Positions 13,556 to 24,257 of a stretch of 64,000 nt of DNA are shown here, piece by piece; position 1 is the first letter of the stretch, and each line of letters begins with the position of its first letter. The stretch covers positions 62,001 through 126,000 of the forward strand of contig REDR01000131.1 of the NCBI GenBank assembly GCA_007693385.1, given 5' to 3'. Position numbers and translations under genes: made by a program. The notes under the pieces were generated by a model that was not told the DNA's origin, made no database searches, and was given only the letters and a program-made list of their open reading frames with translations. The stretch comes from Anaerolineaceae bacterium (lineage in GTDB: Bacteria > Chloroflexota > Anaerolineae > Aggregatilineales > Phototrophicaceae).

Positions 13556-13581
13556 TCGGGCCGATTAATCAGGCCGATTAA
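13549..13581. repeat. three 13-bp tandem repeats across the tyrS stop
   Basis: CGATTAA occurs at 13549, 13562 and 13575, giving three near-identical copies of a 13-bp unit CGATTAATCGGGC. The first copy contains the tyrS stop and the third contains the stop of the convergent carboxylase gene, so the gap between the genes is made almost entirely of the repeat. Confidence 0.8.
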
Positions 13582-15518
13582 CCGCCGCCGTCGTCCTCTG
13601 TGACTTCCAACAACACCGCCTCCGCGCTGACGGTATCGCCGACGCTGTAATACACCGCTTCGACGACGCCATCATAAGGCGACTGGATGCGGTGTTCCAT
13701 TTTCATCGCTTCCAGCGCCATCAACACATCCCCTTGCTTGACCGTCTGGCCGACTGTCACCGCTACGCTGATGACCTGTCCGGGCATCGGCGCACGCAAC
13801 GAGCCTTCCGCCGCCGCGCCTGCGCCCGGCAACGGTAGCGGATTGCGCCAGCGCAGATGATACGTCGCGCCGTCGTGGTGCGCCCACCACGTTTCGCCGT
13901 CGGCGGTCAGCGTGACGCGCTGGCGGTGGCCGTCCACGATGTATTGACCGTCCGCGACGGCTTGCGCCTGATACGTCTCCGCGCCGATTTCAACCTGATA
14001 GGCGTTCGCGCCCGTCGGGGTCAGCGCGATGCTGTGCGTGTTGTCGTCCCGCGTGAAGTCATGTGTGATGGCGCGATAGCGATTATTGCGCCACGTCGTC
14101 CCCGCCGCCCGTTCGGTCTGTGCGATGCCGACGGCGATCAACACCGGCGGCGGTAGCGCGTCGGTCATGGCGATCAATTCGGGGTGCGCGTCGATGAAGC
14201 CGGTGTGTATATCGCCCGCGATGTGTGCCGGATGGTCGATGACGCGGCGCAGGAACGCGACGTTATTCTCCAGCCCGAACAGCTTGATCCGCGCCAGCGC
14301 GTAACTCAATCGGCGCAATGACTCCTGACGATCCGCGCCCACCGCGATCATCTTAGCGATCATCGGGTCATAGTGGATGCTCACCGCGTCGCCGGTGCGG
14401 ATGCCGGAATCAATGCGGACGCCGCCGGCTTCACCCGTGTCGAATAGCACGACATCGCCGACGGCGGGCAGAAAGTCGCGGGCGGGGTTCTCCGCGTACA
14501 GTCGCGCTTCGACGGCGTGCCCCTTCGCGCTCAAGTTGGTTCGCGGCAACGGTTTACCCGCCGCAATCTCGATCTGCCAGCGCACCAGATCGACGCCGTA
14601 CACCATCTCCGTGACCGGATGCTCGACCTGTAGCCGCGTGTTCATCTCCATGAAATAGAAGTTCTTCCCGGCATCTAGCAGAAACTCCACCGTGCCCGCG
14701 CCGATATAGTTCAGTTGTTGCCCGATGCGGACGGCGGCCTCGCTCATGCGCCCGCGCAGGTCATCATCAACGGCGGGGGAGGGCGTCTCCTCGATGATCT
14801 TCTGGTGGCGGCGCTGGATGCTACATTCGCGCTCGCCGATGGCGATGACGTTCCCGTGCTGGTCGCCGAAGATTTGAATTTCAATGTGGCGCGGGTTGGT
14901 GACGAACTTCTCCAATATCAGCGTATCGTCGGCGAAGGCTTGCGCCGCCTCACGGCGGGCGATGCTCAATGCGCTTGCTAGCTCGTCCGGCGCATCGACG
15001 CGCCGCATCCCTTTGCCGCCGCCACCCGCCGACGCTTTAACCATCACCGGATAGCCGATCTGTTCGGCGGCCTCGCTCAGCGTCTCGTCGCGCTGATCTT
15101 CGCCTTGATAGCCGGGCACTAACGGCACATCTTTCAACATCAGCTTGGCTTCGCGCTTTTTGCCCATAGCGCGGATCGAATCCGGCGACGGGCCGATCCA
15201 CGTCAGGCCAGCGTCGATCACCGCTTCCGCGAATTCGGCATTTTCCGCCAGAAAACCATAGCCCGGATGCACCGCATCCGCGCCGGTGCGCGTCGCGGCT
15301 GAGATGATGCGCGGGATGTTGAGATAGCTCTCCGTCGCCGGACTCGCGCCGATGTGGACGGCTTCCCCCGCCTGACTGACGTGAAGCGCGTCGGCGTCGG
15401 CGTCGGAGTAGACCGCGACGGTGGCGATGCCCATATCGTGGCATGTCCGCATGATACGGCAGGCGATTTCGCCGCGATTGGCGATTAAAATTTTGCGTAT
15501 CGACATCGGCTCATTCAT
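13578..15518 (-). CDS. acyl-CoA carboxylase alpha subunit (biotin carboxylase + BCCP)
   Basis: Carboxylates its own biotin using ATP and bicarbonate, then hands it to the carboxyltransferase subunit encoded at 20823-22433. The 646 residues show the biotin carboxylase N-domain (KILIANRGEIACRI), the ATP-grasp region (KASAGGGGKGMRRV; EKFVTNPRHIEIQI; FYFMEMNTRLQVEHPVTE), a BT-type linker and a C-terminal biotinyl domain with EAMKMEH, target Lys606. This is the architecture of methylcrotonyl-, geranyl- and propionyl-CoA carboxylase alpha chains. Last gene of the catabolic operon, overlapping the hydratase by 8 bases. BirA at 55369-56130 would biotinylate it. Confidence 0.93.
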   Translation of the reverse strand: MNEPMSIRKILIANRGEIACRIMRTCHDMGIATVAVYSDADADALHVSQAGEAVHIGASPATESYLNIPRIISAATRTGADAVHPGYGFLAENAEFAEAVIDAGLTWIGPSPDSIRAMGKKREAKLMLKDVPLVPGYQGEDQRDETLSEAAEQIGYPVMVKASAGGGGKGMRRVDAPDELASALSIARREAAQAFADDTLILEKFVTNPRHIEIQIFGDQHGNVIAIGERECSIQRRHQKIIEETPSPAVDDDLRGRMSEAAVRIGQQLNYIGAGTVEFLLDAGKNFYFMEMNTRLQVEHPVTEMVYGVDLVRWQIEIAAGKPLPRTNLSAKGHAVEARLYAENPARDFLPAVGDVVLFDTGEAGGVRIDSGIRTGDAVSIHYDPMIAKMIAVGADRQESLRRLSYALARIKLFGLENNVAFLRRVIDHPAHIAGDIHTGFIDAHPELIAMTDALPPPVLIAVGIAQTERAAGTTWRNNRYRAITHDFTRDDNTHSIALTPTGANAYQVEIGAETYQAQAVADGQYIVDGHRQRVTLTADGETWWAHHDGATYHLRWRNPLPLPGAGAAAEGSLRAPMPGQVISVAVTVGQTVKQGDVLMALEAMKMEHRIQSPYDGVVEAVYYSVGDTVSAEAVLLEVTEDDGGG

Positions 15519-16311
15519 CCCCTTCTGCTGGTGGCGTCGCCCATGCGGGCTTGCGCTTCTGTATGAAGGCCATCATGCCCTCTTGCCCACTTGCCCCGCG
15601 CCGCAGATCGTCCAGCAGGCGGGCGCGATACGATGCGGTCTGGCTGATGTCGGCGCGGTTCACGCGGAAGATCAACGCTTTGCACGCGGCCAGCGCGTCG
15701 GGGCTGGCCTGCCGGATTTCTTCCAGCGTGGCATTCACGCGCTCGTCTAGCGCATCCGGCGGGCAGACTTCATGCACCAGCCCGTAATTCAATGCCGCCG
15801 CGCCATCAAACCGCGCACCGGTCAGCATCAAGCGCCGCGCATGGGTCAGGCCGATGCGGTCGATCACATACGGCGAGATCAACGCGGGCACGATGCCCAA
15901 CCGCACTTCCGGCAGGGCGAATGTCGCGGTCTGGCTGGCGATGGCGATGTCCGACGCGCACACCAACCCGAAGCCGCCGCCCATCGCCGCGCCTTCCACT
16001 TTGGCGATGACGGCCTGCGGCGCGTTCTGCACCGCGTTCAGCAGGCCGTCGAATTGCTCGGTGCGCCCGCTATCGTCATTGTCGGGATCGGTGAAAGCTG
16101 TCTGCATCTCTTTGAGGTCGCCGCCCGCGCAGAACGTCCCGCCGCTACCGTTCAGCACGATAGCGCGAATGGTGCGGTCATCGCGCAGGGAGTCGAACGC
16201 CTCGCGCAGTTCTATCACCATTTGCTGGCTCATCGCGTTGCGGGCGTCGGGGCGGTTTAAGGTGATCGCCGCGAACGGTGGTTTGATGTTTACGATAATC
16301 GTCTGTGGCAT
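15511..16311 (-). CDS. enoyl-CoA hydratase/isomerase family (methyl- or isohexenyl-glutaconyl-CoA hydratase)
   Basis: A 266-residue crotonase-fold enzyme. The oxyanion-hole segments are GGTFCAGGDLKEM and EGAAMGGGFGLVCASD, and the catalytic region is FALPEVRLGIVPALISPYV, where the Glu of PEVRLG corresponds to a crotonase catalytic Glu. The absence of a GGTQRL motif after LGIVPA and the context (carboxylase alpha subunit directly after, AtuA directly before) suggest hydration of 3-methylglutaconyl-CoA (LiuC/AuhA) or of isohexenylglutaconyl-CoA (AtuE). It lies 3 bases after the AtuA partner gene. The exact substrate is inference. Confidence 0.85.
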   Translation of the reverse strand: MPQTIIVNIKPPFAAITLNRPDARNAMSQQMVIELREAFDSLRDDRTIRAIVLNGSGGTFCAGGDLKEMQTAFTDPDNDDSGRTEQFDGLLNAVQNAPQAVIAKVEGAAMGGGFGLVCASDIAIASQTATFALPEVRLGIVPALISPYVIDRIGLTHARRLMLTGARFDGAAALNYGLVHEVCPPDALDERVNATLEEIRQASPDALAACKALIFRVNRADISQTASYRARLLDDLRRGASGQEGMMAFIQKRKPAWATPPAEGDE

Positions 16312-16314
16312 GGC

Positions 16315-16626
16315 TCACTCATCCCATTCCATGTAAAGCAACGCGCCCGCCAATGACTTCCCCAGCCCGTCGATGCGTAAGGAGCGCGTGCCGCCGCCGT
16401 CCAACGCGCCATGAAGCACGAAGTTCAGCGCCTCGATATTGTCCAGTTCGTAGCGGATGACCTCCCCGCGCACCATATCGCCGAAGTAGTCGTGCACGCG
16501 CTCGGCGGTTAAATGCGTTTTCAGCGTCCGGTAGGCGGCGCTGTCGCGGGCGATGATGCTGATATTGGCGATGTCGCCTTTGTCGCCGGAGCGCCCGAAG
16601 GCCAGATCGTAAAGTCGCTTGGTCAT
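16315..16626 (-). CDS. small AtuA C-terminal-like partner protein
   Basis: About 103 residues beginning MTKRLYDLAFGRSGDKGDIANISIIA. The RSGDKGDIANI block is the signature of the C-terminal domain of AtuA, which in proteobacteria is fused to the main AtuA domain; here it is a separate gene. The start at 16626 overlaps the atuA stop as ATGA, so the two are translationally coupled and probably form one complex. A longer frame to 16689 would overlap atuA deeply and lacks support. Molecular activity of the family is not established. Confidence 0.82.
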   Translation of the reverse strand: MTKRLYDLAFGRSGDKGDIANISIIARDSAAYRTLKTHLTAERVHDYFGDMVRGEVIRYELDNIEALNFVLHGALDGGGTRSLRIDGLGKSLAGALLYMEWDE

Positions 16627-17987
16627 AGTGACACCTCCAGATAATCCACGCTCGGCGTGACCAGATCGCGCCCGATGAGCGTCGGCCACAATCCGAGAAT
16701 AATGCGCGGCTTGGCGCTGATCGTCGTGCCGGAGATACTCATGCCCGCCGGACCGCTCAGGCCGTTATTCATCATGCGGCGTACCGCTTTGCTCAATGTA
16801 TTCTCGTCGTTGGCGGTGAACATCACACGCACGATGACCTCTAGCGGGTCGTCCGGTAGTGGTGCGATGCTCCCGTATAGGCTGTTCATGCCCATGTAGT
16901 CATAGGCGATCCGCTTGATTGAGAGGCCGTCCCAGCTTCGCTCGATCATCGTCTTGAGCTGGTTGACCTTGTGCCATGCGTCCGGCCAGCCGACAGTGAA
17001 GATCAATTCGCGCATGTAGCCTTCGACACGCCCCAGATTCAGCTTGAGCTTTTGCGGGCGCGGCTTGCCACTGACGCCGGTCACGCGCACATGATCGGGC
17101 GCGGTCTGCTCAAGCGCTAGCGTCGTGAAATCAGCGACGACATCCGGTGTGATGTAGTTGGCCGGATCGTGAACTTCGTAGAGTAGTTGTTCTTTCACGG
17201 TGTTGACGGTGACGATGCCGGGCGCGTCCGGCGTCTTGGTGATGGTGAACGCGCCATCGGCCTCAACATGGGCGATGGGGTAGCCCAGATGTGGCAAGTC
17301 CTCCGCTTCGATGCCGTCCTCCATCGCCGCCAGACTGTTACCGCCGACGACCTGACCGGTACATTCCAGCAGGTGGCCGCACACGATGCCGGATGCCAGC
17401 TTGTCCCAGTCATCCCACGCCCAGCCGTAATGCGCGATTAACGGCGCGAGATACAGACACGGGTCAGCGACACGTCCGGTAATCACGATGTCGGCGCCCG
17501 CTTGCAACGCCTCCACGATGGGTAACGCGCCCAGATAAACGTTGGCGTTCGCCCAGTAGCTTTCCGGCGCGAACGGCTTGCCGCTTTCCATGTGGGCTAA
17601 ATCCGCGCCGCCCGCCTGCAATTCGTCCAGCCGTCCCAGCATGTCATCGCCGCTAACGGCGGCTATCTTCACGCCATCCAATCCTAATTTTTCCGCCGTC
17701 GCCTTGACCATCTGCGCCGCGCCCGCCGGATTCAATCCGCCGCCGTTGGTGATGAGCGGTATCTTGCGCTCGAACGCTCCCGGCAGAATCTTTGATGCGA
17801 TGATGTTCAGGTCAAATGTATAGCCGCGTGATGGGTCTTGCAGGCGGTCTTTTTGCAGGATGGCGAGCGTTAATTCCGCCAGCGCCTCGAAGCATATAAC
17901 GTCCACATGCCCGCCTTCGATCATCGGTAGAGCGCGGGTCACGTCGTCGCCATAGAATCCTTGCGCGGAACCAATACGATATGTCAT
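16623..17987 (-). CDS. atuA: AtuA family protein (DUF1446), acyclic terpene utilisation
   Basis: A 454-residue protein beginning RIGSAQGFYGDDVTRAL, with VDVICFEALAELTLAIL, NGGGLNPAGAAQMV, GADIVITGRVADPCLYLAP and CGHLLECTGQVVGGN, all hallmarks of the DUF1446/AtuA family. In Pseudomonas, atuA belongs to the gene set for citronellol/geraniol breakdown, but its reaction is unresolved. The C-terminal domain is split off as the next gene. It sits between an acyl-CoA dehydrogenase and the hydratase/carboxylase genes, which argues for a role in branched or isoprenoid acyl-CoA metabolism. Confidence 0.88.
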   Translation of the reverse strand: MTYRIGSAQGFYGDDVTRALPMIEGGHVDVICFEALAELTLAILQKDRLQDPSRGYTFDLNIIASKILPGAFERKIPLITNGGGLNPAGAAQMVKATAEKLGLDGVKIAAVSGDDMLGRLDELQAGGADLAHMESGKPFAPESYWANANVYLGALPIVEALQAGADIVITGRVADPCLYLAPLIAHYGWAWDDWDKLASGIVCGHLLECTGQVVGGNSLAAMEDGIEAEDLPHLGYPIAHVEADGAFTITKTPDAPGIVTVNTVKEQLLYEVHDPANYITPDVVADFTTLALEQTAPDHVRVTGVSGKPRPQKLKLNLGRVEGYMRELIFTVGWPDAWHKVNQLKTMIERSWDGLSIKRIAYDYMGMNSLYGSIAPLPDDPLEVIVRVMFTANDENTLSKAVRRMMNNGLSGPAGMSISGTTISAKPRIILGLWPTLIGRDLVTPSVDYLEVSL

Positions 17988-18021
17988 AACGTTCTGCTTT
18001 CTTTATGGATTCCAGCGCGAC

Positions 18022-19215
18022 TTAGCGCGGATTCATGTTTTCAAGTTTGGCGATAATCCCCAGCATGACCTCATCCGCGCCGCCGCCGATGGATGTCAGC
18101 CGCGCATCGCGGAAATAACGCGAGATTGGCGTCTCCTCCATGTAGCCCATGCCGCCGTAAAATTGCAGGCAAGTATCGGCCACTTCGCGCATCAGGCGTC
18201 CGGCTTTCAGCTTGCACATGGACGCGATGCGCGTCACTTCCATGTTGTCCTCACCGGCTTCGATCTTGGCCGCGCATAGATAATTCAATTGTCGCGTCGC
18301 CTCAATCTCGGTCAGTAATTCGGCTAGCTTGAATTGAATCCACTGGCTGGCGATCAACGGCTTGTTGAAGGCGTGGCGCTCCTGACAGTACGCGATGGTA
18401 TCACGCACGACCAGTTCCGCACCGGCCACGCCGCCCAGCGCCCCGACCAACCGTTCGACCTGAAATTGCTCCATCTGGTAGTAGAAGCCGAAGCCCTCCT
18501 CGCCGATGCGGTTACTGACCGGCACGCGCACGTCCTCGAACGTCAGGAAGGCGGTATCACTGCTGTGATTGCCCAGTTTTTTGAGTTTCTTGCTGATGGT
18601 AAATCCGGGTGTGTCCGTCGGCACAATGATGAGCGACATCCCCTGATAATCGTCGCCGGGCGATGTACGTGCCAGCAGGCACAGCCAATCGGCCTGCGTG
18701 CCGTTGGTGATGTATAGCTTGCTCCCGTTGATGATGTAATCATCGCCGTCGCGCTCGGCGCGGGTCTTGATGCGGGCGACATCGCTTCCGGCGTCCGGCT
18801 CGGTGACTGCAATCGCGCTGACCATCTCGCCGCGTATGGCCGGCATCAGATAGCGCTCCTTGAGTTCTTCAGAGCCGTGCCGCGCTAAGGCGGGCGTCGC
18901 CATGTCGGTATGCACCAGCGTCGCCATCGGGATGCCCGCCGCGCCCGCCCGCGCTAGTTCCTCCGCGAACACGACGGTAAACCAGATGTCGGCCTCCGCG
19001 CCGCCGTATTTCTCCGGATAGTTCAAGCCGAGAAAGCCGAGTTCGCCCATTTTCTTGAATAGCTCGTGCAGTGGGGCGATCTCCGCTTCTTCCCATTCGT
19101 CAACGTGCGGGCGGATTTCTTTTTCCACGAACGCACGAACGGACTTGCGGAACATCTCGTGTTCTTCGGTGAATGGATTAAACAGGTTAATAGCGGTTGC
19201 TTTTGGTAAAACCAT
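18022..19215 (-). CDS. acyl-CoA dehydrogenase (isovaleryl/citronellyl-CoA type)
   Basis: A 397-residue FAD enzyme introducing the alpha-beta double bond into an acyl-CoA. Seen are the helical N-domain, the flavin segment AIAVTEPDAGSDVARIKT, YIINGSKLYITNGTQADW, and the C-terminal LQFYGGMGYMEETPISRYFRDARL. The usual catalytic Glu position near the end reads SIGGGADEVM, with no Glu; instead Glu254 lies in QVERLVG, the place used by isovaleryl-CoA and long-chain dehydrogenases. That fits a branched substrate. A GGAG ribosome-binding site lies 10 bases upstream, and an own promoter is at 19307. First gene of the core catabolic transcription unit. Confidence 0.88.
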   Translation of the reverse strand: MVLPKATAINLFNPFTEEHEMFRKSVRAFVEKEIRPHVDEWEEAEIAPLHELFKKMGELGFLGLNYPEKYGGAEADIWFTVVFAEELARAGAAGIPMATLVHTDMATPALARHGSEELKERYLMPAIRGEMVSAIAVTEPDAGSDVARIKTRAERDGDDYIINGSKLYITNGTQADWLCLLARTSPGDDYQGMSLIIVPTDTPGFTISKKLKKLGNHSSDTAFLTFEDVRVPVSNRIGEEGFGFYYQMEQFQVERLVGALGGVAGAELVVRDTIAYCQERHAFNKPLIASQWIQFKLAELLTEIEATRQLNYLCAAKIEAGEDNMEVTRIASMCKLKAGRLMREVADTCLQFYGGMGYMEETPISRYFRDARLTSIGGGADEVMLGIIAKLENMNPR

Positions 19216-19318: not shown

Positions 19319-20179
19319 TTACCGCTTGATCGCATGAATCCCGAACATCAATGGTATGACGAATGCGCTTTCCGGCATGAACATCTGGCGGCCTTCGCGC
19401 TCGATCATGTTATCGAAAGGCTTCCAGCCGTTGCAATGCGGGTATTCTTCGACTCGCGTGATGGTCAATCCCGCCGCGATCAGCGCGTTGAGGTGGTCGG
19501 CCAGCCCCCATGCGAACTCGTGCGCGGGGTGCGGATTGTGCCATGTTGCATCATCGGGCGCGACGGCGGTCGGCGTGCCGGTGTTGGTCGATTCGCCACC
19601 CTGCACGCCGACATAATCGCCCACGCCGTCCGCATTGTAGATATGGCCGCCGCCCATGTAGTCAAAGCTGATGTGACGCCCATCATCGCCCAACATACCC
19701 ACTACCGGATGAAATTCCACCATGACGAACCGCCCGCCATCTTTTAGCGCTCCGGCGACGCCCGCCCCCCACCGCGTCAGATCGCTCAGCCAGCCCGTCG
19801 TCCCGTATGACGTGAACACCGCGTCGAAGGGCTGGTCGTTGGCGTCGAACCAGTCGAACAGATCAGCGCGGATAAACTGCGCCGGAATCCCGCTATCGCG
19901 TGATAGTGCCTGCGCGAAATCAACCGCCTCATCGCTGATGTCGATGCCGGTCACATCCGCGCCCAGATGGGCGGCGATGCTCAGCGTATCGACGCCGGTA
20001 TTGCATTGCAGATGCGCTAGCGTCCGCCCGCGCACATCGCCCAGCAGGTCGATCTCTTCGGGGAATAGCGTGTTGCCGCCGTCGCGCAGGAACGCGGCTT
20101 GATCGCCCTTGTGGATGTTGTGGCGGCGCGTCGCCGCGTTCCATGATTGCCGGTTGTCTTGATGATGCGCGTCGCTCAT
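19319..20179 (-). CDS. class I SAM-dependent methyltransferase
   Basis: A 286-residue protein with a Rossmann-fold methyltransferase core: motif I is a variant (RTLAHLQCNTGVDTLSIAAH, with CNTG in place of the usual GxGxG), then an acidic end of strand 2 in VTGIDISDEAVDFA, motif for strand 4 FDAVFTSYGTTGWL and post-motif LKDGGRFVMVEFHPV. The C-terminal third has conserved-looking His/Trp residues (ATWHNPHPAHEF) common in the family with this odd motif I. It overlaps the RNA-binding protein gene upstream by 4 bases (ATGA). The substrate is unknown; the coupling suggests an RNA or translation-linked role, which is inference. Confidence 0.8.
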   Translation of the reverse strand: MSDAHHQDNRQSWNAATRRHNIHKGDQAAFLRDGGNTLFPEEIDLLGDVRGRTLAHLQCNTGVDTLSIAAHLGADVTGIDISDEAVDFAQALSRDSGIPAQFIRADLFDWFDANDQPFDAVFTSYGTTGWLSDLTRWGAGVAGALKDGGRFVMVEFHPVVGMLGDDGRHISFDYMGGGHIYNADGVGDYVGVQGGESTNTGTPTAVAPDDATWHNPHPAHEFAWGLADHLNALIAAGLTITRVEEYPHCNGWKPFDNMIEREGRQMFMPESAFVIPLMFGIHAIKR

Positions 20180-20805
20180 CCTACGGTTTCCTCTACATCG
20201 AAGCGGTGCGGATTGACGATCAGATGGTAGATGGCGCGGTCGTCGGTCTTTTCGTAATTCGGCAATTTGCCGCCCTTCGGATGCACGATCTGGTAGATCG
20301 GCGGCGACATGCGCGGCAGGGCGAGTTGAAAGAACACGCCGCCCACCGAACGTTTGCGCGTGCCGTCCAGCGTCAACATGCCCTCACCGGCGTGTAACGC
20401 CTGCGCTTCTTCCAGCAGTGCGTTGACGAAGCTATGCCCGCACAATAGCACCATACTGTGAATACGGCGCACCGGCTTGCGGTACACTTCGTTTAGCGTT
20501 TTGCACACCGACTCGGCGGTTTGCCGTGCTTTCTTGCTCAGCCCACGCTCTACGGCATCCATGTCAACATCGGGATAGCTGACCGCCAGCCGCTTACCGT
20601 TGATCTCCATGCCGTTTAATGTGCTATTGGCGCGGGTGGCGCTCTTCTCGGCGTTCATCGTCACCAGTAGCGCCTGCACGTCAAAGCGTTCGTTGTGCGT
20701 CGTGGCGATTGCCGTCACGTCGCCGTATTCGCTGAACGTCTCGCGGATGGTCGCCTCGTCGGTCTCATCAGCCAGATTTGCGACGTAAAGAGTCTCGCGT
20801 CCCAT
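20176..20805 (-). CDS. RNA-binding protein: RRM domain plus PHAX-like RNA-binding domain
   Basis: A 209-residue protein. Residues 1-80 form an RRM: RNP2 is LYVANL, spacing and the ending LNGMEINGKRLAVSYP are typical, but the RNP1 strand reads VQALLVTM without the usual aromatics. Residues about 90-170 resemble the RNA-binding domain of eukaryotic PHAX, the snRNA export adaptor: ALLEEAQALHAGEGMLTLDG followed by TRKRSVGGVFFQLAL, matching its Gly-rich TxGGVFxxLL end. The tail (HPKGGKLPNYEKTDDRAIYH) is unrecognised. A GGAAAGAG ribosome-binding site lies upstream. It is sandwiched between the carboxyltransferase (17-bp gap) and a methyltransferase (4-bp overlap). RNA target unknown. Confidence 0.78.
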   Translation of the reverse strand: MGRETLYVANLADETDEATIRETFSEYGDVTAIATTHNERFDVQALLVTMNAEKSATRANSTLNGMEINGKRLAVSYPDVDMDAVERGLSKKARQTAESVCKTLNEVYRKPVRRIHSMVLLCGHSFVNALLEEAQALHAGEGMLTLDGTRKRSVGGVFFQLALPRMSPPIYQIVHPKGGKLPNYEKTDDRAIYHLIVNPHRFDVEETVG

Positions 20806-20822: not shown

Positions 20823-22433
20823 CTACATGCGGTCATTTCCATAGCGGGGTACACCTTCGTTCACCCAGTCCCGATTATACGACATGCTCAGGCCGATTGT
20901 CAGCGCTTCGCGGGTGTGGCGTGGGTCGATCATGCCATCATCCCAGATGCGGGCGGTGCCGTAATACGGGTCGGATTCTTGCTCGAATTTGTAGCGCACC
21001 ATGAATTTCATCTGCTCGATCTGCTCCATGTCCGGCTCGATGCCGCGCCGCCGTGCTGATGCTTCCTGCACGATGCCCAGCACCCCGGCGGCTTGCTCCG
21101 CCCCCATGACCGCCGTGCGGCTGGTCGGCCACGAGAAGATCAGGCGCGGATCGTAAGGCCGCCCGCACATCGCATAATAGCCCGCGCCATACGCGCCGCC
21201 GATCAACACGGTGAATTGCGGCACGTTGCTATTGGCGACGGCGTTAATCATCTTGCTCCCGTGTTTGATGATGCCGCCTTCTTCGTATTGCCGCCCGACC
21301 ATGAAGCCGGTGATATTTTGCAGATAGATCAACGGGGTTCTGCTGTGGTTGCAAAGCTGGATGAATTGCGCCGCTTTATTAGCGCTTTCCGAGAATAAAA
21401 TGCCGTTGTTCGCCAGAATGCCCACCGGAAAGCCGTTAATGTGCGCGTGGCCGGTGACCAGCGTCGCGCCGTAATCCGGCTTGAACGGATGGAAGCGCGA
21501 GCCGTCTACGATGCGGGCGATGACTTCGTGCATGTCGAGCGGCTGGCGGATGGTATCGACGGGCACGATGCCCAGCAATTCGTCGGGATCGTAAAGCGGC
21601 GGCTCCGGCGTGCGGAGCGCGGCGTGAATCCCCTTGCGATGGTTCAACTGCCCGACGATCTCGCGCCCGATGCGTACCGCGTCGGCGTCGTCCTCCGCGA
21701 TGTAGTCCGCCAGACCGGAAACGCGGGCGTGCATCGCCGCGCCACCCAGCGACTCCTCGTCCACTTCCTCGCCCGTCGCCATCTTGACCAGTGGCGGCCC
21801 ACCCAGAAACGCCATCGCTTGATCGCGCACGAACACCGTATAATCGCTGAGGCCGGGCACGTAAGCGCCGCCCGCCGTGCTGTTGCCGAAAACCAGCGCG
21901 ATTTGCGGCAGACCGAGAGCGCTCATCTGCGCTTGATTGGCGAAACCGCGCCCGCCCGGGACGAAAATATCCGCCTGATGCGGCAGATTCGCCCCGCCGG
22001 ATTCCACCAGATACACCATCGGCAGGCGGTTCTCGCGGGCGATTTCCTGTGCGCGTAGCGACTTGCTCAGCGATACGGGGTAGGTCGTGCCGCCTTTGAT
22101 GGTCGCCTCGTTACAGGAGATCATCACCTCCACGCCGTTGACCACGCCAATACCGCTAATGATGCCCGCGCCCGGCGTCTCGTTCTCGTACATATCCCAC
22201 GCCGCCAGCGACGAAAGCTCCAGAAACGGCGCGCCCGGATCGAGCAGGCGTTCCACGCGCTCACGCGGGAGTAACTTGCCGCGCTCGATGTGGCGCAGGC
22301 GGGCGCGTTCACTGCCGCCTTGCCGCACTTTGGCCTGCCGTTCTTCGAGAGTCTGCACTAGCGTTTGATTGTGCTGGTAATTCTGCGCGAATGAATCGTC
22401 TTTTCTGTCGATTTTACTTTGAATAATGGTCAT
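20823..22433 (-). CDS. acyl-CoA carboxylase beta subunit, geranyl-CoA carboxylase-like
   Basis: Carboxyltransferase of 536 residues that moves CO2 from biotin to an acyl-CoA; partner of the biotin subunit at 13578-15518. Both crotonase-like halves are present: ESGGANLPHQADIF, STAGGAYVPGLSDYTVFV and GGAAMHARVSG in the N half; ILANNGILFSESANKAAQFI, NITGFMVGRQYEEGGIIKHG and GGAYGAGYYAMCGRPYDP in the C half. The segment at 159-166 reads PGGRGFAN, where methylcrotonyl-CoA carboxylases carry a bulkier, Phe-containing stretch before NQA; small residues there are a trait I associate with geranyl-CoA carboxylase (AtuC). First gene of the minus-strand block. Confidence 0.88.
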   Translation of the reverse strand: MTIIQSKIDRKDDSFAQNYQHNQTLVQTLEERQAKVRQGGSERARLRHIERGKLLPRERVERLLDPGAPFLELSSLAAWDMYENETPGAGIISGIGVVNGVEVMISCNEATIKGGTTYPVSLSKSLRAQEIARENRLPMVYLVESGGANLPHQADIFVPGGRGFANQAQMSALGLPQIALVFGNSTAGGAYVPGLSDYTVFVRDQAMAFLGGPPLVKMATGEEVDEESLGGAAMHARVSGLADYIAEDDADAVRIGREIVGQLNHRKGIHAALRTPEPPLYDPDELLGIVPVDTIRQPLDMHEVIARIVDGSRFHPFKPDYGATLVTGHAHINGFPVGILANNGILFSESANKAAQFIQLCNHSRTPLIYLQNITGFMVGRQYEEGGIIKHGSKMINAVANSNVPQFTVLIGGAYGAGYYAMCGRPYDPRLIFSWPTSRTAVMGAEQAAGVLGIVQEASARRRGIEPDMEQIEQMKFMVRYKFEQESDPYYGTARIWDDGMIDPRHTREALTIGLSMSYNRDWVNEGVPRYGNDRM

Positions 22434-22545: not shown

Positions 22546-22724
22546 TGCCACATGCGTTTTGCTTTGTTGCGGAATTTGGAGTAACATTAGAAATCGAGAT
22601 TTAGTGGGCTACATGGCGCGATGGTTTGCGGATGATCTGGTCAGGCATATTTCCGCACGCCGTCACCATGCCGCCCCGCGTAAATACCAACTTGTTAACG
22701 GCGTGCGTCACGAAAGGTATCAAG

Positions 22725-24257
22725 ATGACCGATGACATCCTCCAAGATGACGGTCTTGAACAAGAAGACGGCAAAAAGCGGCGGGGACGCCGTAAGAAGA
22801 GCAAACCGGCAGGGGAAGGTGGCGGCCTGCGTCAGTGGCTAGTTGATAGCTACAACGGCGTTTTCAGGATCGTCATTCAGCCGCAATTGCCATCTTTGCG
22901 CGTGCTGTCCTTCATGTTGATTGCGTTTTTGGCCGGCATGTTCTGGGCATACGAACCGGCGGGCGTGCAGTTCTATGACGGCGCACCGCACCAGATGCGA
23001 AGCGAACATCAAGACCAGTACATCATCGGCATTGCCGCCAGCAAACTCGCCAACATCTATGACGATGAGGGCATCCGGCAATTGCTGGAACGCATTGACG
23101 ATCCGGCGGAGCGTGCCGAGCGCTTGATCCAGCGTGGCGGGCAGACCGCCGCCGCCCTCGAGCAAGTCATCGACGTGGCGCGGGTGGTCGAAGGTCGGCC
23201 AGCGCCGTCAAGCGGTAGCCTGCTGGCGGCGATATTACAGATCGCGGGCGGGGTGCTGATTTTCGTGGTGGTGGTCAACGTGTTCGCGCTGGTGTGGGGC
23301 TTGTTGATCGGCGGCTATGTGGAACGCGCCCGCCTGACGATCAAGCGGCGCATGGTCGGCGAATCTGACGATGACAAACGCGCCCGCGAGACGATGGAGG
23401 GTGAACGCCGCCGCCGTGACATCGCCAAGCAGATGCTAGAGACGACCACCGATTCCGATAGGGCGCTCGGTACGCCGCTTGTCAATAAACCGTCGATTTA
23501 TTTCAAAGGCCGCGCCTACGACGATTCCTTCGCTATTGAAGATGCGGATGATATGTTTCTGGGTGAAACCGGCGCGACGGTGGCGCGGAGCATCGGCGAT
23601 GGGCAGGACTTATCCGCCGTTGAGGTCTGGCTGTTTGATAAAGATGATTTCGTCAAGACGCTCACCAAGATTTTTGTCAGCGAACACGGCTATAATGATC
23701 CGGCCACGCGCTCCGATCTGGAAAACCGCGTAGATAATCCGCAGACCGACATCGTTGTGTTGCGTGCTGGCGCGGAACACATCGTCGAGAGCGATAACTT
23801 GATCGTCAAGGCGAAGGTGGCCGACGCCACGCCGGGCACTGATCCGGCGCTACCGCCGAACAGCCACTTCGAGAGTATGACGCTACAAATTCAAGCATGG
23901 CAGAAACAGGCGGGGGCAACGCCCGCATCGCCGCCACCGATGGGCGCTCCGGCGGGCGGTCTGCCGGATGTATCCGACTATCAGATAGGCACATTATCGG
24001 ATGCGCCCGCATCGCCGCCACCACCGCCACCACCGCCGCCGTCGTCTAGCGGTCAGCGCGATTTATCCGAATACGAGATTGACCCGTTACCGCCGGGCAT
24101 GTCGCCACCGCCATCACCGCCGCCGATGGGTTCGCCCGGCACATCGACCCGCCCGACGATGCCGCCGGACTTGCCGCCGTATGATGCCGGTGATGACGAT
24201 GACGAAGAAGATGATCCATTCGGCGGGACTGCGGACTTCACCCCGATTAATCGCTGA
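22725..24257 (+). CDS. two-segment membrane protein with proline-rich tail, unrecognised
   Basis: A 510-residue protein. It starts with a charged stretch (DGKKRRGRRKKSKP), has a membrane segment near 31-50 positions after that (VLSFMLIAFLAGMFWAY), an external domain of about 100 residues, a second membrane segment (GGVLIFVVVVNVFALVWGLLIGG), then a cytoplasmic basic helix and a globular domain (SAVEVWLFDKDDFVKTLTKI). The tail is rich in Pro with runs of up to ten, and ends in an acidic patch (DDDDEEDDPFGG). The start at 22725 has AAAGG upstream; an in-frame earlier ATG at 22626 lacks support. A strong terminator follows. I know no functional family; it resembles conserved hypothetical proteins of Chloroflexota. 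Confidence 0.7.
   Translation: MTDDILQDDGLEQEDGKKRRGRRKKSKPAGEGGGLRQWLVDSYNGVFRIVIQPQLPSLRVLSFMLIAFLAGMFWAYEPAGVQFYDGAPHQMRSEHQDQYIIGIAASKLANIYDDEGIRQLLERIDDPAERAERLIQRGGQTAAALEQVIDVARVVEGRPAPSSGSLLAAILQIAGGVLIFVVVVNVFALVWGLLIGGYVERARLTIKRRMVGESDDDKRARETMEGERRRRDIAKQMLETTTDSDRALGTPLVNKPSIYFKGRAYDDSFAIEDADDMFLGETGATVARSIGDGQDLSAVEVWLFDKDDFVKTLTKIFVSEHGYNDPATRSDLENRVDNPQTDIVVLRAGAEHIVESDNLIVKAKVADATPGTDPALPPNSHFESMTLQIQAWQKQAGATPASPPPMGAPAGGLPDVSDYQIGTLSDAPASPPPPPPPPPSSSGQRDLSEYEIDPLPPGMSPPPSPPPMGSPGTSTRPTMPPDLPPYDAGDDDDEEDDPFGGTADFTPINR

Follow-up and report, generated by a model that had tools for sequence, protein, structure and literature searches.

What is a protein with a domain of an animal RNA export factor doing in the catabolic operon of a bacterium? 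The question is raised by a short gene of an Anaerolineaceae bacterium (phylum Chloroflexota), analyzed here within a window of 64,000 nucleotides, meaning the whole stretch of DNA that was studied. In animals, small RNAs leave the nucleus with the help of PHAX, the phosphorylated adapter RNA export protein. An earlier note on this DNA had read the gene product as an RNA recognition motif (RRM) followed by a PHAX-like RNA-binding segment, and we therefore call the gene RRM–PHAX.

The RRM–PHAX Gene and Its Product

The gene, its domains, and its immediate surroundings are listed in Table 1. RRM–PHAX is 60% identical to its ortholog in the nearest genus, and its two halves differ in conservation, with 69% identity in the PHAX half and 46% in the RRM half when the nearest orthologs are compared. 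Against the nearest ortholog, substitutions cluster at third codon positions (0.71 versus 0.37 and 0.24 at the other two), and synonymous changes are saturated. Judged by this conservation and third-position bias, RRM–PHAX is a translated gene on which purifying selection is acting. The carboxyltransferase and the acyl-CoA dehydrogenase encoded nearby are 84% and 87% identical, respectively, to those in the nearest ortholog's genome; RRM–PHAX therefore evolves faster than these neighbors, yet is clearly constrained. The AlphaFold model of the full protein has a mean pLDDT of 86 and a pTM of 0.83.

Table 1. Features of the RRM–PHAX locus, with positions in the window and the evidence for each
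Feature	Position	Strand	Evidence
Acyl-CoA carboxyltransferase subunit, upstream	20823..22433	-	PF01039, E=5e-136
Candidate separate promoter, promoter-like site CTGACA-18-TATAAT	20874..20903	-	11/12 sigma-70 consensus matches
RRM–PHAX protein, 209 aa	20176..20805	-	ORF with ATG start; Pfam RRM_1 and PHAX_RNA-bd; AlphaFold model
RRM domain, residues 6-73	20587..20790	-	PF00076, E=3.2e-9; Foldseek matches to PABP and other RRMs
RNP2 LYVANL, residues 6-11	20773-20790	-	Alignments
Degenerate RNP1 VQALLVTM, residues 43-50	20656-20679	-	Alignments
PHAX RNA-binding domain core, residues 97-161	20323..20517	-	PF10258, E=1.4e-10; Foldseek of residues 88-187 model
Signature segment GMLTLDGTRKRSVGGVFFQL, residues 142-161	20323..20382	-	Alignments A2 and A4; human alignment
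C-terminal tail, residues 186-209, predicted disordered	20179..20250	-	pLDDT <50 over 186-209
Methyltransf_25-type SAM methyltransferase, downstream	19319..20179	-	Pfam; synteny

The RRM, the sole one detectable in the window genome, scores 37 bits with PF00076 against a cut-off of 20.7, and the AlphaFold model and Foldseek agree on its beta-alpha-beta-beta-alpha-beta fold. Tyr7 of RNP2 is retained, and both RNP1 aromatics are missing from the window copy. Most close orthologs keep one of them (RYALVxM), and one family (f88) keeps both (KGFGFVHM). Canonical RNA binding by this particular RRM may be absent, RNP1 being without its aromatics. When the whole protein was searched with Foldseek, RRMs alone were found among the matches listed because the RRM dominates, and the second half was therefore modeled separately.

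Is the Second Half a PHAX Domain?

The Pfam profile PF10258 (PHAX_RNA-bd) gives 41.4 bits, well over its curated cut-off of 25, and covers positions 2-63 of the 84 in the profile. The motif TLDGTRKRSVGGVFFQLAL falls inside this match, and the signature segment is almost invariant across alignments of bacterial and eukaryotic PHAX domains; its common core reads GSRRRTPGGVF in the human protein versus G[ST]RRRTxGGVFF in the bacterial ones. How well do bacterial sequences alone lead to PHAX? Relatives were gathered by a protein search of 61 related genomes and then aligned (A2, and A4 over the PHAX half), and the PHAX relatives that lack an RRM were placed in a separate alignment (A3). All 14 fusion proteins of A2 matched both PHAX_RNA-bd and RRM_1. 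Searched against the PDB, the bacterial-only profiles found the human PHAX structure 2xc7 at E values of 4.7e-15 (A2), 4.8e-20 (A4), and 3.3e-20 (A3), and they also matched human 8pnt and the Cryptosporidium domain 2w4s. By these profile searches, the PHAX match is far beyond chance.

The predicted structure tells the same story. The model of the PHAX half has five helices, a pLDDT of 91, and a pTM of 0.81. With residues 88-187 as the query, the probability-1.00 Foldseek matches in the PDB were 2w4s A, 2w4s B, and 2xc7, all of them PHAX domains, and no other fold in the PDB rose above a probability of 0.08. The best match is Cryptosporidium parvum 2w4s (TM-score 0.80 by target, 2.2 A). For a helical query of 100 residues, Foldseek E values of 0.006-0.06 are modest; what settles the PHAX identity is that these matches rank at the top and that the sequence evidence, which is independent, agrees.

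The reading in the earlier note, an RRM with the RNP2 LYVANL and a weak RNP1 followed by a PHAX-like RNA-binding segment, is thus borne out. The profile searches it had proposed, with PF10258 and the RRM families, matched above cut-off for both domains, and residues 90-170, the part it had singled out for structural comparison, have a predicted fold like that of the human PHAX domain as well as the profile match. Profile and fold evidence together support its view that the protein fuses an RRM with a bacterial relative of the RNA-binding domain of PHAX.

Comparison with Known Proteins

How much of PHAX proper does the bacterial protein retain? The two have one domain in common, as judged by profile, signature segment, and predicted fold. 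The segments of PHAX that bind the cap-binding complex and contain the NES (residues 112-162), and those that contact CRM1 and ARS2, have been described (PMC12350170). PHAX carries the cap-complex-binding helix, the NES, the ARS2 motif, and a phosphorylation-cluster region, all of which RRM–PHAX lacks; no homology to the ARS2 motif or to segment 112-162 was found, and full-length human PHAX (8pnt_C) aligns only at residues 223-322. Unlike PHAX, moreover, RRM–PHAX is bacterial and joined to an RRM, and a three-residue gap (LQEPKK) that marks both eukaryotic PHAX sequences is absent from it. On this comparison of sequences, RRM–PHAX is not PHAX proper, the cap-complex and CRM1 adaptor, and has the RNA-binding domain alone in common with it.

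The closest fold, that of Cryptosporidium 2w4s, is also eukaryotic, and its solved chain has no RRM. Although named "Ankyrin-repeat protein," the chain has both the sequence and the fold of a PHAX domain. PHAX domains are therefore not confined to animals among eukaryotes. In a comparative study, PHAX was termed an animal innovation (PMC3032688). The literature search found no description of a bacterial PHAX domain and no mention of PF10258, in keeping with the statement in the earlier note that the fusion and its place in a catabolic operon are not known to have a functional description.

Among bacteria, a parallel in size and domain content is found in the cyanobacterial RRM proteins (Rbp1-3; NF058537), which are likewise small and built on a single RRM. 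RRM–PHAX differs from them in its C-terminal partner, the PHAX domain, and in its degenerate RNP1, and it scores 30.5 bits with NF058537, the equivalog for cyanobacterial-type Rbp proteins, far below the cut-off of 100; it is not a member. In Synechocystis Rbp3, the region C-terminal to the RRM can steer the protein to a different physiological role (PMC9333190), which makes it a helpful parallel.

Distribution and Domain Partners

PHAX domains are patchily distributed. PF10258 is present in 16 of 301 sampled Chloroflexota genomes, in 20 of 298 genomes of the class, and in 68 of 154 genomes of the order. Of the 154 genomes of the order, 29 carry the RRM–PHAX fusion, counted as matches spanning both domains, with at least 32 such genes among them. 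PF10258 was not found in 14 control genomes or in 198 genomes of another phylum, that of a Spirochaetes MAG. This MAG had provided the sole match in the genome-contig search (L027), which was rejected as a chance one: the protein shares little beyond IHAGEGMLT, and PF10258 matches neither its genome nor any of 197 others from that phylum. The fusion itself had no match among phage profiles, defense profiles, or viral records.

The commoner form of bacterial PHAX protein lacks the RRM and is 250-400 residues long. The window genome has two PHAX genes, the second of which (G000 contig 136:62574-63782; L001, L059) encodes such a protein of about 377-402 aa. This protein, like others of Chloroflexota with PHAX alone or with a cold-shock domain joined to it (for example, on Herpetosiphon aurantiacus plasmid CP000876), has the PHAX domain in common with RRM–PHAX and no RRM. 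Most of these proteins share, at the C terminus, a conserved module that has no Pfam match; in the second protein of the window genome, its pattern is G[RH]PxxxV...P[KR]GxPxP...LxIEG. An OB-fold identity for the module was considered from likeness by eye and set aside, as searching its sequence against Pfam and the PDB turned up no natural homolog that was convincing. Of 23 RRM-less PHAX proteins, 3 have a cold-shock domain. In a family of other Chloroflexota (f23: L018, L019, L023, L024), an N-terminal cold-shock domain is joined to PHAX, and L024 has three repeated N-terminal segments that look cold-shock-like by eye and have no Pfam match.

How often did the RRM and PHAX domains come together? 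In a tree of PHAX domains, the short fusions form one group and the longer ones are scattered, at weak support, which suggests that the two may have been joined more than once. The same tree puts the eukaryotic pair away from the window gene; supports around the pair are 0.57-0.83, from about 80 residues.

Gene Neighborhood

The gene lies between the carboxyltransferase and methyltransferase genes, with a 17-nt gap on one side and a 4-nt overlap (ATGA) on the other. Genes for acyl-CoA dehydrogenase, AtuA, enoyl-CoA hydratase, and biotin carboxylase follow the methyltransferase. Pfam assignments of these neighbors bear out, for the window genome, the claim that RRM–PHAX sits in a catabolic operon. 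The surrounding genes (13578-19215 and 20823-22433, both on the minus strand) form an acyclic-terpene/leucine-type catabolic operon and include an AtuA-ferredoxin-like gene. The order carboxyltransferase, RRM–PHAX, methyltransferase recurs in the genome of the nearest ortholog (G303), where the operon has an extra Schlafen/AlbA_2 gene (L049:7704-8684) between the methyltransferase and the acyl-CoA dehydrogenase. Elsewhere in the window, a gene on the plus strand (22626-24257) has a 543-aa product that contains hydrophobic segments, ends in a proline-rich tail, and has no Pfam match at E ≤ 1e-5.

Is this setting informative? It is common to only one other genus; neighbors differ at the other RRM–PHAX loci examined, and no conserved replication or repair neighbors were seen. 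In addition, the promoter-like site lies within the last part of the upstream gene, some 70 bases ahead of the RRM–PHAX start codon, and is the one such site in the 64-kb window versus 0.09 expected. The G303 ortholog has TTAACA-18-TATAAT at the equivalent place; this, too, is coding sequence, so that the conservation is not independent evidence. As the neighbors are shared with a single genus and the gene is preceded by its own promoter-like site, a role tied to the catabolic pathway is unlikely, and the place in the operon seems to be a local arrangement rather than a functional clue.

What Might RRM–PHAX Do?

RRM–PHAX is probably a trans-acting, two-domain protein that binds single-stranded RNA, either as an RNA chaperone or as a factor in mRNA stability or translation, with the PHAX domain as its main contact. 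From its domain families, it would be a small cytoplasmic protein that holds single-stranded RNA through both domains; from its context, it would act in trans and post-transcriptionally on many transcripts. The helical PHAX domain would provide the main conserved contact through its basic-glycine segment, G-x-x-T-x-D-G-x-R-x-R-[ST]-x-G-G-[VI]-F-F-x-L. The RRM would be a second contact, presumably weakened in the window copy because RNP1 has lost its aromatics; more speculatively, it may set specificity or bind a partner instead. Such a role would be akin to that of the cyanobacterial RRM proteins or, in other bacteria, of cold-shock proteins or Hfq.

What supports this proposal? Each domain scores significantly against a family of RNA-binding domains, and the closest folds carry the PDB titles "PHAX-RBD in complex with ssRNA" (2xc7) and "novel RNA-binding domain" (2w4s). 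The stronger conservation of the PHAX half counts for PHAX as the main contact, and the nonconserved neighbors and promoter-like site fit a trans-acting role. That PHAX is joined to an RRM in some proteins and to a cold-shock domain in others fits a nucleic-acid-binding module and not part of a catabolic enzyme; these alternative partners are the best, if indirect, evidence that PHAX works as an RNA-binding module in bacteria. An RNA target that differs from that of eukaryotic PHAX, as the earlier note had supposed, is a reasonable expectation. Three points weigh on the other side: RNP1 has lost its aromatics, the conserved basic residues could also serve DNA binding, and the patchy presence of PHAX in the phylum and of the fusion in the order is less than expected of a core chaperone.

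Could RRM–PHAX regulate its own operon instead? The tight spacing to its neighbors and the equal gene order in the one genus with a 60%-identical protein would suit a local regulator that attaches to the carboxylase/acyl-CoA dehydrogenase transcript and thereby governs how stable it is or how well it is translated. We consider this unlikely, given the different neighbors at the other loci examined and the promoter-like site before the gene. A factor associated with the ribosome, rRNA, or tRNA, like the RRM proteins of plastid ribosomes, is another improbable candidate. It is brought to mind by the A2 profile, whose best RRM matches include cS22 and 30S ribosomal protein 2 of plastid ribosomes, and by 5mmj chain v in the Foldseek list. 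These matches cover the RRM only, however, and the RRM draws matches with little specificity (447 sequences at E ≤ 0.01); the patchy presence also speaks against a core ribosomal role.

What about DNA? RRM and cold-shock domains can bind single-stranded DNA, and the basic loop conserved in PHAX is not by itself specific for RNA, as would suit an accessory protein that binds single-stranded DNA or nucleic acids in general. Such a function is nevertheless doubtful: the solved PHAX-domain matches are titled RNA-binding, one of them with ssRNA, and conserved neighbors for replication or repair were not seen. Finally, the near identity of the signature segment to the human one might evoke a recent gene transfer from a eukaryote with the PHAX export-adaptor role kept. 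The adaptor part of this idea is already refuted, and the whole deserves hardly any credence. The bacterial family is diverse, with several architectures in many Chloroflexota families; human PHAX, of 394 residues, aligns over its RNA-binding domain alone; the tree, at weak support, sets the eukaryotic pair apart; and CBC, CRM1, and the nucleus are missing in bacteria.

A Bacterial PHAX Family

Both domains of the fusion were already known and recognized by Pfam; the wider point, which goes beyond the positions covered by the earlier note, is a bacterial PHAX-domain family with several architectures. Since many Chloroflexota relatives carry PHAX, the module exists in cells without a nucleus, and these bacterial domains, clear by sequence and predicted fold, show that it is not bound up with either nuclear export or capped snRNA. 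One tentative and rather less likely extension of the trans-acting RNA-binding role is that PHAX is an ancient RNA-binding module of bacteria; in Chloroflexota it would have diversified by joining RRM, cold-shock, and other partners and would define an undescribed class of global RNA-binding regulator in bacteria, and the eukaryotic export factor would have taken it over later. The bacterial proteins offer a simple system for asking what the module recognizes. They may also represent a class of RNA-binding regulator in a phylum, Chloroflexota, in which proteins of this kind have received little study. Another group that seems little studied, several small RRM-only proteins of about 100-170 aa, occurs in many genomes of the order.
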